NCBI RefSeq assembly: GCF_017068455.1
Contig: NZ_CP070608.1
Location: 3,842,501-3,906,500 of the forward strand
Source: Fulvivirga lutea
GTDB lineage: Bacteria > Bacteroidota > Bacteroidia > Cytophagales > Cyclobacteriaceae
DNA: 64,000 nucleotides
Direction: 5' to 3'
Below, one piece after another: positions 50,291 through 53,692 of the stretch. The translations under genes were made by a program, and so were the position numbers. How positions within the stretch are numbered: the stretch's first letter is position 1; the number at the start of each line of letters is the position of its first letter. Below the pieces are notes generated by a model. It worked only from the letters and a program-made list of their open reading frames with translations, ran no database searches and was not told the DNA's origin.

Positions 50291-52081
50291 CTATCTTTTA
50301 TAAATCACCCCATCAGGCTCATTATCGAAGTGTTTTTCATAGATGTCACGATATTTTTTGGCATCAGAATCTGAAACTTTATCTCCATTCACCAGCACAT
50401 CTCCATTTCTCTCAAATTCTAAGTCTGATAGTCTTTCACTGCCTTTGAGGTAGCCATCCTTTCTAATTTCATCCACTAGCTCGTTTTCAAATTCCTCCAC
50501 TCTCTTTTGAATATTATGAGCCATGGCTTCAATTTCTCTCACTCTCAATTCTTCTACTTTTAGCTGCTTTTCCATTACTTCTTTGGCTCGCTCAAGCTCT
50601 GCATGAATGCGTTCCTCATCAACTAAAACCCGCTGAGCCATTTCCTTCGCACGTAATACTTCAGCCTGAATCATGTCCTCAAATCGCTTATCATCGAACT
50701 TGCTCATTTTAATACTCAGCTCTTCTGACATTCTGTTGAGTTCTTCACCGTGTTCTGCATAGAAATCTTCAAACTTTTTAGAAAACTCTTCCATAAATTC
50801 TTCCGACCATCTTGTCAGTTCTTCAGACCTGTCAAAATGGATTGAGTTTCTTCTCGGCCAATCATCATTTCTCCAGTCATCATCTTCTTCTAACGAATCC
50901 TTCTTTACCACTCGAGTTTCTTTTACAGCTCTTTTTTCTTCTACCCTTACGTTGGTTCTGGTTTGCACAACTCTATCGTCATCTTCTTTCGGATTCTCCC
51001 TATCGTCAGCAAACGCTACATCATTATTACTTTTCACTTTGACTTTCTTCTGTTGAGCGTCTACAATTGTATTTTTAATTACATCATTCTGATGTAAACG
51101 AGTTGGCTTGTCTTTTTTGGAGTACCAACTAAAGCTCATAATAATAGCCGCCATGACCAATAGCGCTATTAATTTTACTTCCATTTTGTTTTGAGTTTTC
51201 ATACCTGTTAATCGTTTTATTCGTGTTATTAAGTTGTTATTGGTTGCAAATTGAGTGGCCAATAGAGGACGTAATCTCACCTCCTCTACCGCTGCAAGAG
51301 TTTTAATATATTCATTCTTATTTTCTAAAATTGACACTACTTCGTCATCCACAGCATTCTCTCTTTCAGCTCGAATAATGCCTGAAATCACCCACACAAA
51401 AGGATTAAAGAAGAAAATCGATTCAATTAAATGCTGTAAAATATTAACCAGAAAATCGTATCGCTTGATATGAACCAGTTCGTGTGAAATGATCAATTCA
51501 AGCTGACTCAAACTTAGGTTGGATGCATAGGAAATTGGAAATAAAATAACCGGTTTTAAAATTCCTACTACACACGGGACATCAATCCTTGTAGAAAATT
51601 TTAATTGTACAGGTTTTGATATACCCAATTTACTACTAAGTGTATTTGTAATTTCATGCCATTTATCATTAGTTACCAAAACAGATTTACTCACAAGCCA
51701 TTTGAGATACACAATGCTGCCTGTAAACCGCAGAAGCATGGCGCCAACACCGGCAAGCCAAATAAAAACAATACTTTGAATATGTGATTGTATCCAACTT
51801 ATGAATGCTATCGTACTTACATCTTCTACCAGATTACTTGAGAATACAAAGTAAACTTGATTCAACTCACCAGACTGAATTGAGCTGGTTTGGTAATACC
51901 AGAATGTGGCCAATGCACTTATTGATAGCATCAATAGTGCGATGCATGCCAACAGATATTTAATGGAAGAAGACTCGACCCTAAAAAGTGCCTTGAAACC
52001 AAACAGCACCAAAACCATGAACAAACCTTGCCACATTGAATGTAGAAGTGTGTACCCGATAGCTTCAATTACTCCAGTCAT
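50291..52081 (-). CDS. BlaR1/MecR1-type M56 membrane metallopeptidase
   Basis: BlaR1-type proteins sense a signal and trigger cleavage of the BlaI repressor. The 596-aa protein has four hydrophobic segments (about 8-30, 40-62, 90-128 and near 215-235), the zinc site H200-E201-LV-H204 (SHELVHIKRYD) and downstream E241 (RAEREN). A fifth transmembrane helix (LIALLVMAAIIMSFSWY, about 303-320) precedes a long soluble tail. Instead of a penicillin-binding sensor domain, the tail (about 320-596) is a highly charged coiled coil of Glu/Arg-rich helices. The signal is therefore not a beta-lactam in any obvious way. It overlaps blaI by 4 bp. Confidence 0.88.
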   Translation of the reverse strand: MTGVIEAIGYTLLHSMWQGLFMVLVLFGFKALFRVESSSIKYLLACIALLMLSISALATFWYYQTSSIQSGELNQVYFVFSSNLVEDVSTIAFISWIQSHIQSIVFIWLAGVGAMLLRFTGSIVYLKWLVSKSVLVTNDKWHEITNTLSSKLGISKPVQLKFSTRIDVPCVVGILKPVILFPISYASNLSLSQLELIISHELVHIKRYDFLVNILQHLIESIFFFNPFVWVISGIIRAERENAVDDEVVSILENKNEYIKTLAAVEEVRLRPLLATQFATNNNLITRIKRLTGMKTQNKMEVKLIALLVMAAIIMSFSWYSKKDKPTRLHQNDVIKNTIVDAQQKKVKVKSNNDVAFADDRENPKEDDDRVVQTRTNVRVEEKRAVKETRVVKKDSLEEDDDWRNDDWPRRNSIHFDRSEELTRWSEEFMEEFSKKFEDFYAEHGEELNRMSEELSIKMSKFDDKRFEDMIQAEVLRAKEMAQRVLVDEERIHAELERAKEVMEKQLKVEELRVREIEAMAHNIQKRVEEFENELVDEIRKDGYLKGSERLSDLEFERNGDVLVNGDKVSDSDAKKYRDIYEKHFDNEPDGVIYKR

Positions 52082-52455
52082 TTTTGTTCATCATTTAGTT
52101 TATCGATATACTCCTTAATCTCTTTAAGCTCCTTAGCATCAGATTTTTTGTTACCTAAAACCTGCATCACCATTTTCATAGCTGAACCCTGAAATGCGGT
52201 TTCCATAAGCTGCTCAACCAGTGTTTGTTGTATCGACTCTTGATTAATAATTGCCGTATACCGATGTGTTTTACCAAACAACTCTCTGGACACAATTCCC
52301 TTTTCGTGCATGATTTGCATGAACTTCAAAGTGGTGGTGTAACCTACCTCCTTTTCGGTGGATAGTTGTTCATTTACTTCCCTAACCGTTGAAGGGCCTT
52401 GCTTCCAAAGCACTTGAAGTATTTCTAATTCCTTATCAGTGGGTTTAATTTTCAT
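52078..52455 (-). CDS. BlaI/MecI/CopY-family repressor
   Basis: The 125-aa winged-helix repressor matches the family throughout: PTDKELEILQVLWKQGPSTVREV, then GYTTTLKFMQIMHEKGIV and the wing with THRYTAIINQE. A dimerisation region forms the C-terminal 45 residues. It begins 2 bp after a 16-bp palindromic operator and is followed by the M56 gene (4-bp overlap), so it very likely represses its own operon. The TACGAA-type operator differs from the TACA-N3-TGTA of Staphylococcus BlaI, but the repressor family is clear. Confidence 0.92.
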   Translation of the reverse strand: MKIKPTDKELEILQVLWKQGPSTVREVNEQLSTEKEVGYTTTLKFMQIMHEKGIVSRELFGKTHRYTAIINQESIQQTLVEQLMETAFQGSAMKMVMQVLGNKKSDAKELKEIKEYIDKLNDEQK

Positions 52456-52456
52456 A

Positions 52457-52472
52457 TACGAAACTATTCGTA
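52457..52472. promoter_or_regulatory. BlaI operator O2, over the transcription start
   Basis: TACGAAACTATTCGTA is a 16-bp palindrome (TACGAA-N4-TTCGTA). It lies 1 bp upstream of the blaI ATG and covers the predicted transcription start. Confidence 0.8.
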
Positions 52473-52474
52473 GA

Positions 52475-52505
52475 CAAATGTAAATTTTGATTTTTAGAAA
52501 ACAAA
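52475..52505 (-). promoter_or_regulatory. Promoter of the blaI-M56 operon
   Basis: On the minus strand TTTG (52505-52502), exactly 19 bp, and TACATTTG (52482-52475) match the Bacteroidota consensus perfectly. The promoter is bracketed by operators O1 and O2. The leader would be about 10-15 nt. Confidence 0.85.
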
Positions 52506-52511
52506 TTTTAA

Positions 52512-52527
52512 TACGAATTTTTTCGTA
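52512..52527. promoter_or_regulatory. BlaI operator O1, upstream of -33
   Basis: TACGAATTTTTTCGTA is the second 16-bp palindrome of the same format. It ends 6 bp upstream of the -33 box. The two operators are 55 bp apart centre to centre (about five helical turns). Confidence 0.8.
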
Positions 52528-52630: not shown

Positions 52631-53692
52631 ATGGCTAAACTCTCGAATGTATTAAGAATAGGCATTATTATTTTAGGCTTTATGGTTGGCTATGCCATGC
52701 TCACTGCCATCTTGTTCTATTTCGAGTCGCAGGACCCTAATGCTACCATTAAAGATTATGGTGATGCAATTTGGTTTGCCATGGTTACCTTGACCACTGT
52801 TGGTTATGGAGATTTGACTCCTGTTACGCAGGAGGGGCGCATTTTTGGTTCTATTTTTTTGTTGGCTAGTCTTGGTTTTTATGGTGTCATGATCGGTCAA
52901 ATAAGTAGCATAATGAACACCATAAGAGAGAATAACAAACTGGGTATGAACGGAACAAACTTTACGAATCATGTAGTGATGGTAGGCTGGTCAGATTTTG
53001 GAAAAGCCGTTATTGATCAGCTAATAGCAGCAGGAAGGCAAGTAGCCGTTGTTACTAAGGAAAAAGACAACATCGATATTATAAGGGAGTTCTACCCTAA
53101 CAAAAATGTATTTACGCTCTTTTCTGACTACAGTAATGTGGAGATGCTCACCAAATTGAATGTAGAAGAATGTTCCATTATTTTCGTGAATTTGGATGAT
53201 GACACAGAAAAACTAGTGTACATACTTAATTTAAAGAAGCAGTTTAGCGATTTAAAATATGTGGTAACATTAGACAATGCCAACCTTAAAACCACTTTCC
53301 AAAGTGCAGGGGTAACCTATGCTGTAAGTAAACATGAAATAGCATCCCGTTTGTTGGCCAGCTATATTTTTGAGCCCGATGTGGCTGAATATTCTGAAGA
53401 AATATTATCCTACCCGCAAACAGACGAGCATTATGATATAAAGCAGTATAAAGTTTTAAAGGATAACCCTTACAATGGGCAATTTTACGACAAAGTTTTC
53501 TATGACATTAAAAAGGAGTTTAATGTTGTTTTGATTGGAATAGTGAAAATTGAAGATGGCAAAAGAACTCTGATGAAGAACCCGGAAGAAACAGTAAAAA
53601 TCTCAGAGGAAGATTATTTGATAATGATCATTAATAAGAACTCTGTTAAAAAGCTAAAACGATTCTTTAATGTTGATGAAGGCTATTTATAA
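52631..53692 (+). CDS. Potassium channel with RCK (TrkA-N/TrkA-C) domain
   Basis: A two-helix K+ channel of the MthK type: transmembrane helix 1 (about 7-30), pore loop with selectivity filter TVGYGD (56-61), transmembrane helix 2 (about 70-92), then a TrkA-N/RCK nucleotide-binding domain starting at HVVMVGWSDFGKAVID (about 107-125) and a TrkA-C-like domain (about 265-353). It gates on ligand binding to the RCK ring. The ATG at 52631 gives the natural helix 1; an upstream in-frame TTG adds 11 hydrophobic residues and is less likely. It is transcribed divergently from blaI. Confidence 0.92.
   Translation: MAKLSNVLRIGIIILGFMVGYAMLTAILFYFESQDPNATIKDYGDAIWFAMVTLTTVGYGDLTPVTQEGRIFGSIFLLASLGFYGVMIGQISSIMNTIRENNKLGMNGTNFTNHVVMVGWSDFGKAVIDQLIAAGRQVAVVTKEKDNIDIIREFYPNKNVFTLFSDYSNVEMLTKLNVEECSIIFVNLDDDTEKLVYILNLKKQFSDLKYVVTLDNANLKTTFQSAGVTYAVSKHEIASRLLASYIFEPDVAEYSEEILSYPQTDEHYDIKQYKVLKDNPYNGQFYDKVFYDIKKEFNVVLIGIVKIEDGKRTLMKNPEETVKISEEDYLIMIINKNSVKKLKRFFNVDEGYL

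Follow-up and report, generated by a model that had tools for sequence, protein, structure and literature searches.

The promoter of the blaI gene studied here lies between two matching 16-base palindromes that are almost certainly the switch by which the repressor controls its own gene, because palindromes of the same kind occur at the same place before nearly all of the close relatives that we examined. We consider it very probable that both palindromes are operators bound by dimers of the adjoining BlaI, which would repress its own promoter sterically until relieved by the M56 protein encoded next to it; binding, repression, cleavage, and the contacts between residues and bases are predicted here from sequence. 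The putative operators are supported by comparative genomics, namely by their presence, their uniqueness in the genome, their conservation, their spacing, the promoter between them, and the correlation of site type with BlaI subfamily.

The window, which is the whole stretch of 64,000 nucleotides from Fulvivirga lutea that was analysed, contains on its minus strand, in this order, a distal palindrome (O1), a -33 box, a -7 box, a proximal palindrome (O3), blaI, and the gene for an M56 membrane metallopeptidase. O1 (52512-52527, upstream of the -33 box) reads TACGAATTTTTTCGTA on the forward strand and TACGAAAAAATTCGTA on the gene strand. O3 (52457-52472) reads TACGAAACTATTCGTA on the forward strand and TACGAATAGTTTCGTA on the gene strand, and its position is kept in the orthologs. 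Both were found exactly where the initial annotation had placed palindromes of the form TACGAA-N4-TTCGTA, and the spacing between them is 55 bp. On the minus strand the gap between the palindromes is TTAAAATTTGTTTTCTAAAAATCAAAATTTACATTTGTC. It holds the promoter claimed for it, TTTG-N19-TACATTTG with a spacer of 19 nt, and homologous gaps give this promoter independent support. The -33 box (52502-52505), of which a TTG is conserved in the homologous gaps, reads TTTG, the -33 consensus of the Bacteroidota sigma-A promoter. The -7 box TACATTTG (52475-52482) is conserved between operators and matches the TAnnTTTG consensus reported in PMC9723704, so that both Bacteroidota sigma-A boxes are present. 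Because the sigma-A -7 box is placed at -12 to -5 relative to the start in the same source, blaI transcription would start near 52470, within O3. The proximal palindrome had been said to cover the start and to touch the start codon, and the distal one to end next to the -33 box; O3 indeed lies over the predicted start, 1 base from the blaI ATG (52455), and O1 is 6 bases from the -33 box. The blaI gene (52078-52455) is predicted to encode a winged-helix repressor of 125 aa (PF03965) with a recognition helix at residues 39-52 that includes L43, K44, Q47, and M49. It overlaps by 4 bp with the M56 gene (50291-52081), the product of which is BlaR1-like and contains a HELVH motif.

The simplest mechanism for such an arrangement is exclusion of RNA polymerase. 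A BlaI dimer on O3 would cover the start site and a dimer on O1 would abut the -33 box, so that polymerase would be shut out and blaI-M56 held at a low basal level. An envelope signal would activate the M56 protease, leading to inactivation of BlaI and expression of the operon. More sensor and more repressor would then be made, giving a self-resetting switch.

The 4.14-Mb genome contains TACGAA-N4-TTCGTA at exactly two positions, both of them in the blaI promoter. The relaxed pattern TACGA-N6-TCGTA identified the same two sites, and its reversed control pattern occurs six times. When single bases of the 175-bp intergenic region were shuffled 200,000 times, two of the shuffles contained one or more exact sites.

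A search for BlaI in 147 genomes of the same family gave 124 genomes with a match at E <= 1e-10. Among the matches listed, identities fall into two groups, one at or above 40% and the other at or below 36%. The ortholog set comprises all 92 copies with at least 40% identity among the matches listed, the window included, and the distant set comprises 18 copies with 24-35% identity, which are part of the weaker matches listed. TACGA-N6-TCGTA is present within 250 bp upstream of blaI in 86 of the 92 orthologs, with at least two sites in 78, three in 31, and the exact TACGAANNNNTTCGTA in 38. Upstream of the distant copies it was found in 0 of 18. Four orthologs (L077, L124, L127, and L128) have ACGAC-N4-GTCGT instead, giving 90/92 with this variant, and L030 has a pair of sites farther upstream (520 and 491 bp before the start of the match), giving 91/92 when it is counted. 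In L030 a reading frame of 150 aa (1031-1483) lies between the operator pair and blaI, which suggests that a first gene was added to this operon. The one other ortholog, L110, contains a degenerate site only.

Similar results were obtained with a named set consisting of the best 80 of 502 orthologs, which overlaps partly with the genomes of the 92 and includes Spirosoma, Larkinella, Pedobacter, Chitinophaga, Dyadobacter, Pontibacter, Saprospiraceae, Melioribacter, and others. Sites were found in 78 of the 80, with at least two in 75 of them and three in 23. Start codons were assigned by script, and L281, the clear sites of which were missed by the script, is counted here as a miss. The initial annotation had staked its model on operators being conserved before orthologous blaI genes, and the model passed this check in both sets. 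A frame bearing HExxH follows blaI in 76 of the 80 named loci (62 by script, and 14 more when the other 18 were inspected again). Of the four loci left, three lie where the contig ends before such a frame could appear, and in the fourth, L243, none was found. The Pedobacter panaciterrae locus (L289, 1535-1965) has two blaI genes, each with paired sites, and the second of these is followed by an M56-like frame.

Pooling both ortholog sets gave 167 unique promoters (172 records before duplicates were removed). Of these, 159 have sites, with two sites in 96, three in 53, and one in 10. All 202 spacings between neighbouring sites are within 23-33 or 50-58 bp and they peak at 24-25, 30, and 56 bp. 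There are 109 spacings of 23-28 bp, 58 of 29-33 bp, and 35 of 50-58 bp, and 34 of these long spacings are 53-58 bp. The gaps contain promoter elements. TTTG occurs in 73 of the 109 short gaps (shuffled mean 12.3) and TTG in 49 of the 58 middle gaps (shuffled mean 17.0). In the long gaps, TTG-N18-22-TAnn(n)TTG oriented toward blaI is present in 27 of 35, the window included (shuffled mean 0.1, largest 2 in 2000 shuffles); it was found in the opposite orientation in 0/35 long gaps, and in 0/35 upstream control stretches. Three-site arrays have a blaI-ward promoter between the outer sites in 36 of 52 cases and one of the other orientation in none of the 52. The general design is thus a comb, in which operators alternate with the promoter boxes in the order O1/-33/O2/-7/O3. 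The two-sided bracket described for the window is present, but it is one variant of this three-slot layout in which the middle operator is missing. The window has O1 and O3, and inspection of the gap by eye revealed no remnant of O2. The spacings are not whole helical turns, so looping would gain no special support from them.

We also searched with the pair of sites alone, using no protein. This paired pattern matches 24 of 296 genomes across the phylum, and the reversed pattern matches none. Inspection of the 24 loci, one per genome, showed that 19 lead directly into a BlaI gene with a helix of the YxTxLKxMQ type, one (L170) leads into a BlaI with another helix, and four are not beside BlaI. 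The last group consists of L153, where the pair is associated with an outer-membrane gene, and L166, L167, and L168, which gave no convincing reading. Within the order, 177 of 341 genomes contain the paired pattern and none contains the reversed pattern. The window itself is missed by this search because its gap of 39 exceeds the limit of 37. The BlaI of L170 (1501-1542) has the helix YTTIMSVMKK, with TACGACGATCATCGTA twice upstream. Thus, a helix with L43-K44 is not required for reading TACGA-type sites, and L170 may represent a separate origin of TACGA recognition.

In a profile search, the window BlaI matched PF03965 with 92.6 bits against a cut-off of 22.6, and the PDB sequences closest to it are those of M. 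tuberculosis Rv1846c (2g9w), MecI, and BlaI. A predicted structural model (pLDDT 80.5, with the C-terminal half of low confidence) had its best Foldseek matches among MecI/BlaI structures (1okr, 1sd6, 1sd4, 1xsd, and 2d45), of which 1xsd and 2d45 are DNA complexes. Judged by this model, the protein has the MecI/BlaI winged-helix fold. Scores against the NCBIfam BlaI/MecI models (39.9, 23.5, 22.6, and 21.6 bits) are under the cut-offs of 180, 250, 250, and 250. The M56 protein matched PF05569 (119 bits against 31) over residues 19-289 of 596. This was the only Pfam domain found in it, with no match to a penicillin-binding sensor domain and no Pfam family in the C-terminal half at E <= 0.001; its score with NCBIfam blaR1_generic was 94.7 bits, below 400. 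The C-terminal half is highly charged and looks like a coiled-coil.

The two BlaI groups differ in both operator and recognition helix. ACTA-N6-TAGT was found before 12 of the 18 distant copies, in all 12 in the form AACTA-N6-TAGTT, and is lacking before the other six; it occurs before 0 of the 92 window-class orthologs. Twelve of the 18 distant copies have an ACGA-class copy alongside them in the same genome, and the F. lutea genome itself holds one BlaI of each class. Its second BlaI (L006, 1468-1866; C1:2724062-2724397, minus strand) contains PF03965 and the helix AYNTVSTIVRIL. Near its start are AACTAATATTATAGTT and AACTATTTTATTAGTA, which are dyads of the ACTA-N6-TAGT type. The class with this helix is like that of the window in its PF03965 domain and in having 16-bp dyads in its own promoters, often several per promoter, and differs in the sequence of these dyads. 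By eye, an M56-like frame follows the second blaI, which gives a parallel system with the other operator class.

Alignment showed that L43, K44, Q47, and M49 are present in all 92 orthologs. The 18 distant copies have S (16) or A (2) at position 43, T (12) or S (6) at 44, R (18) at 47, and L (15), M (2), or I (1) at 49. Because all 92 orthologs share L43, K44, and Q47 and none of these occurs in any of the 18 distant copies, in two of which M49 is found, the comparison indicates that the window BlaI is of a subfamily with its own operator specificity, ACGA in place of ACTA. We infer from the alignment that the half-site TACGA (ACGA) would be read through the recognition helix by L43, K44, Q47, and M49. 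The mec operator is TACTACATATGTAGTA, that is, TACTA-N6-TAGTA, and given this operator the ACGA class would differ from it in base 4 of each half-site. A tree built from 111 proteins has the ACGA group on one side of a branch with support of 98/91 and likewise separates the other group (99/99), with the groups labelled by identity class, few columns, and a midpoint root. The tree took in 91 ortholog rows, and L067 was left out after the script had fused it to a long open frame. Residue 48 varies with base 6 of the half-site in a tally of strict sites only, in which half-sites were counted regardless of kinship. Ile goes with A in 201 of 276 half-sites, Asn with T in 54 of 84, and Arg with C in 9 of 10; among rarer residues, Leu goes with A in 8 of 12 and Val with T in 6 of 8. 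A clade with the helix LKQ[MI]QRM (L077, L084, L087, L121, L123, L124, L126, L127, and L128) has mostly ACGAC-N4-GTCGT sites.

The system resembles staphylococcal BlaI/MecI in its PF03965 repressor of the same fold, the adjoining M56 protease gene, and the dyads over its own promoter. It differs from staphylococcal BlaR1 systems in that no penicillin sensor was found in the window M56 protein and in that the window promoter is of the Bacteroidota type. Neither a beta-lactamase gene nor a PBP gene was recognised in or beside the blaI-M56 operon. The operator consensus given for staphylococcal MecI/BlaI in PMC5341023 is [AG]NATTACA[AT]NTGTA[AG][TG]NT with a TACA/TGTA core. This core is absent from the window sites (TACGAANNNNTTCGTA), in agreement with the earlier statement that the consensus is other than that of Staphylococcus. 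The scissile bond given in the same source, Asn101-Phe102, aligns with Gln98-Val99 in the window BlaI. The cleavage site is thus not conserved, which gives no support to a cut at the corresponding bond.

Related systems are also described outside the staphylococci. DAP-seq and EMSA of BlaI_0696 and BlaI_1845 from Clostridium thermocellum gave regulons of only three operons and one operon, and the promoter of the own blaR1-containing operon has two inverted-repeat pairs (PMC8457756). The half-sites reported there, GTCTAT and GACTAT, are nearer to the ACTA class of the distant copies than to ACGA. CopY/CopR belongs to the same family and also has 16-base operators, two of them in a pneumococcal promoter, but its consensus RNYKACANNYGTMRNY is unlike the window sites (PMC7253601). 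CopY has a C-terminal Cys-X-Cys metal site, whereas the window BlaI has no cysteine in its 125 residues; its NCBIfam match to CopY/CopR is weak (41.9 bits, cut-off 121.95). That BlaI can regulate its own operon from paired dyads and can have a very small regulon was already known, as reported in PMC8457756. Among the top matches listed from the open-licence literature, we found no description of the operator class, the promoter comb, or the link to a helix signature, and we regard the system as a well-supported new variant among BlaI systems.

Other explanations for the palindromes were considered. The gene divergent from blaI encodes a K+ channel with a TrkA_N domain (52631-53692), and its ATG is 104 bp from O1. 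The sites could be shared with this gene, in which case BlaI-M56 would regulate potassium flux, and in the relatives L022 and L023 blaI likewise has a channel gene nearby that shares the TVGYGD filter motif. We think this unlikely given that the motif is near only 3 of the 167 unique promoters, searched up to 1.5 kb upstream with at least 1.4 kb available in 162. In L023 another gene is between the channel and blaI, no clear TTTG/TAnnTTTG promoter for the channel was seen by eye, and operator sites are kept where the channel neighbour is missing. The sites could also be those of a different transcription factor with blaI among its targets, since binding by BlaI itself is deduced from the DNA and protein sequences. 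This has a very low probability in view of how site type tracks BlaI subfamily, with ACGA in one group and ACTA-N6-TAGT in most of the other, even within one genome, and of the BlaI genes reached by searching with nothing but the paired pattern.

Two further possibilities concern the repeats as structures. If the palindromes acted as RNA elements, a proximal hairpin at the blaI start might control translation, and a 6-bp stem (-5.9 kcal/mol, z -0.97) is predicted for a transcript beginning at 52474. With 52470, the predicted start, however, the value is only -2.7 kcal/mol (z 0.18), and O1, which has the same format, is upstream of the promoter and outside the transcript, making this reading highly improbable. 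Repeats that flank a promoter also recall the invertible, phase-variable promoters of the Bacteroidales kind, which exist in this phylum (PMC8748976). Here, each repeat is itself palindromic, arrays of three occur, 27 of 35 gaps have the promoter pointing toward blaI and none of the 35 has it pointing away, and no recombinase was recognised by eye among the ORFs of 46-58 kb. The chance that the window contains an invertible promoter is negligible.

The motif had been offered as a means of finding the regulon of the signal sensed by the M56 protein, and in the F. lutea genome it did not lead to a wide one. The whole-genome pattern search gave no other strict TACGA-N6-TCGTA target, and one-mismatch sites number 67 compared to 178 for the reversed pattern, which is no excess. 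With two strict sites and no excess of near-sites, a wider BlaI regulon in this genome is not supported at the sensitivity used. The context of 22 near-sites in 20 stretches, picked by eye from genome listings, showed that 17 are inside ORFs and five are not wholly within one. Two stretches have two near-sites apiece, 525 bp apart in L328 and 817 bp apart in L331, and these are the sole candidates, weak ones, that we kept for further targets. The near-sites of L331, TACGAATAACTGCGTA (2001-2016, C1:203311) and TACGAAGAACTGCGTA (2818-2833, C1:204128), are near-identical and asymmetric (TACGAANAACTGCGTATG), and may belong to another factor. The first precedes a gene resembling response regulators and overlaps the end of a gene resembling sensor kinases; the second is before the gene for a secreted-looking protein of 333 aa.

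Arrays before other genes were found elsewhere in the order. We picked 20 further stretches from genomes with extra pairs, 16 from g85 (one genus in another family of the order), three from G507, and one from G600, a make-up that is not a frequency. Five arrays are before blaI-M56 and 12 (11 from g85 and one from G507) are before a protein of 812-839 residues. The remaining three are before an S41 peptidase (G573), before an aspartyl protease (G507), and in one unclear position. Five of the 12 long proteins were scanned and all have an OMP_b-brl_3 beta-barrel and a carboxypeptidase-regulatory domain; the other seven were assigned from their length and N-terminus only, and both proteases were named by domain scan. 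These candidate beta-barrel and protease targets would point to a function in the envelope and not in beta-lactam resistance. A papain-like protease gene, recognised by eye behind M56 in seven Chitinophaga-type loci, was rejected as a target, with no TACGA/TCGTA in the 130 bp before it (0/7).

Bacteroidota BlaI proteins are often labelled beta-lactamase regulators, one example being three Dyadobacter proteins, which may be of either class, in PMC12584681. The ACGA class has its own DNA code, a window M56 protein in which no beta-lactam sensor domain was found, and visible other targets that are beta-barrel and protease genes. On balance we lean toward the view that Bacteroidota have two orthogonal BlaI-M56 classes, ACTA and ACGA, often in one cell, and that the ACGA class, with its fixed helix signature, partial code between residue 48 and base 6, comb promoter, and, in some lineages, beta-barrels and secreted proteases, would be an envelope-signal system of its own. 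The operator provides a direct handle for regulon finding in Bacteroidota genomes. It also makes it possible to test whether a single base (ACTA to ACGA) switches specificity within a repressor family, and could be useful for an orthogonal repressor-promoter pair in Bacteroidota. In the same order, paired TACGA-N6-TCGTA sites are before PF14905 outer-membrane beta-barrel genes in L216, L217, L218, L224, and L233, and in L232 (2142-3479), from G507, a three-site array is directly before the aspartyl-protease gene.
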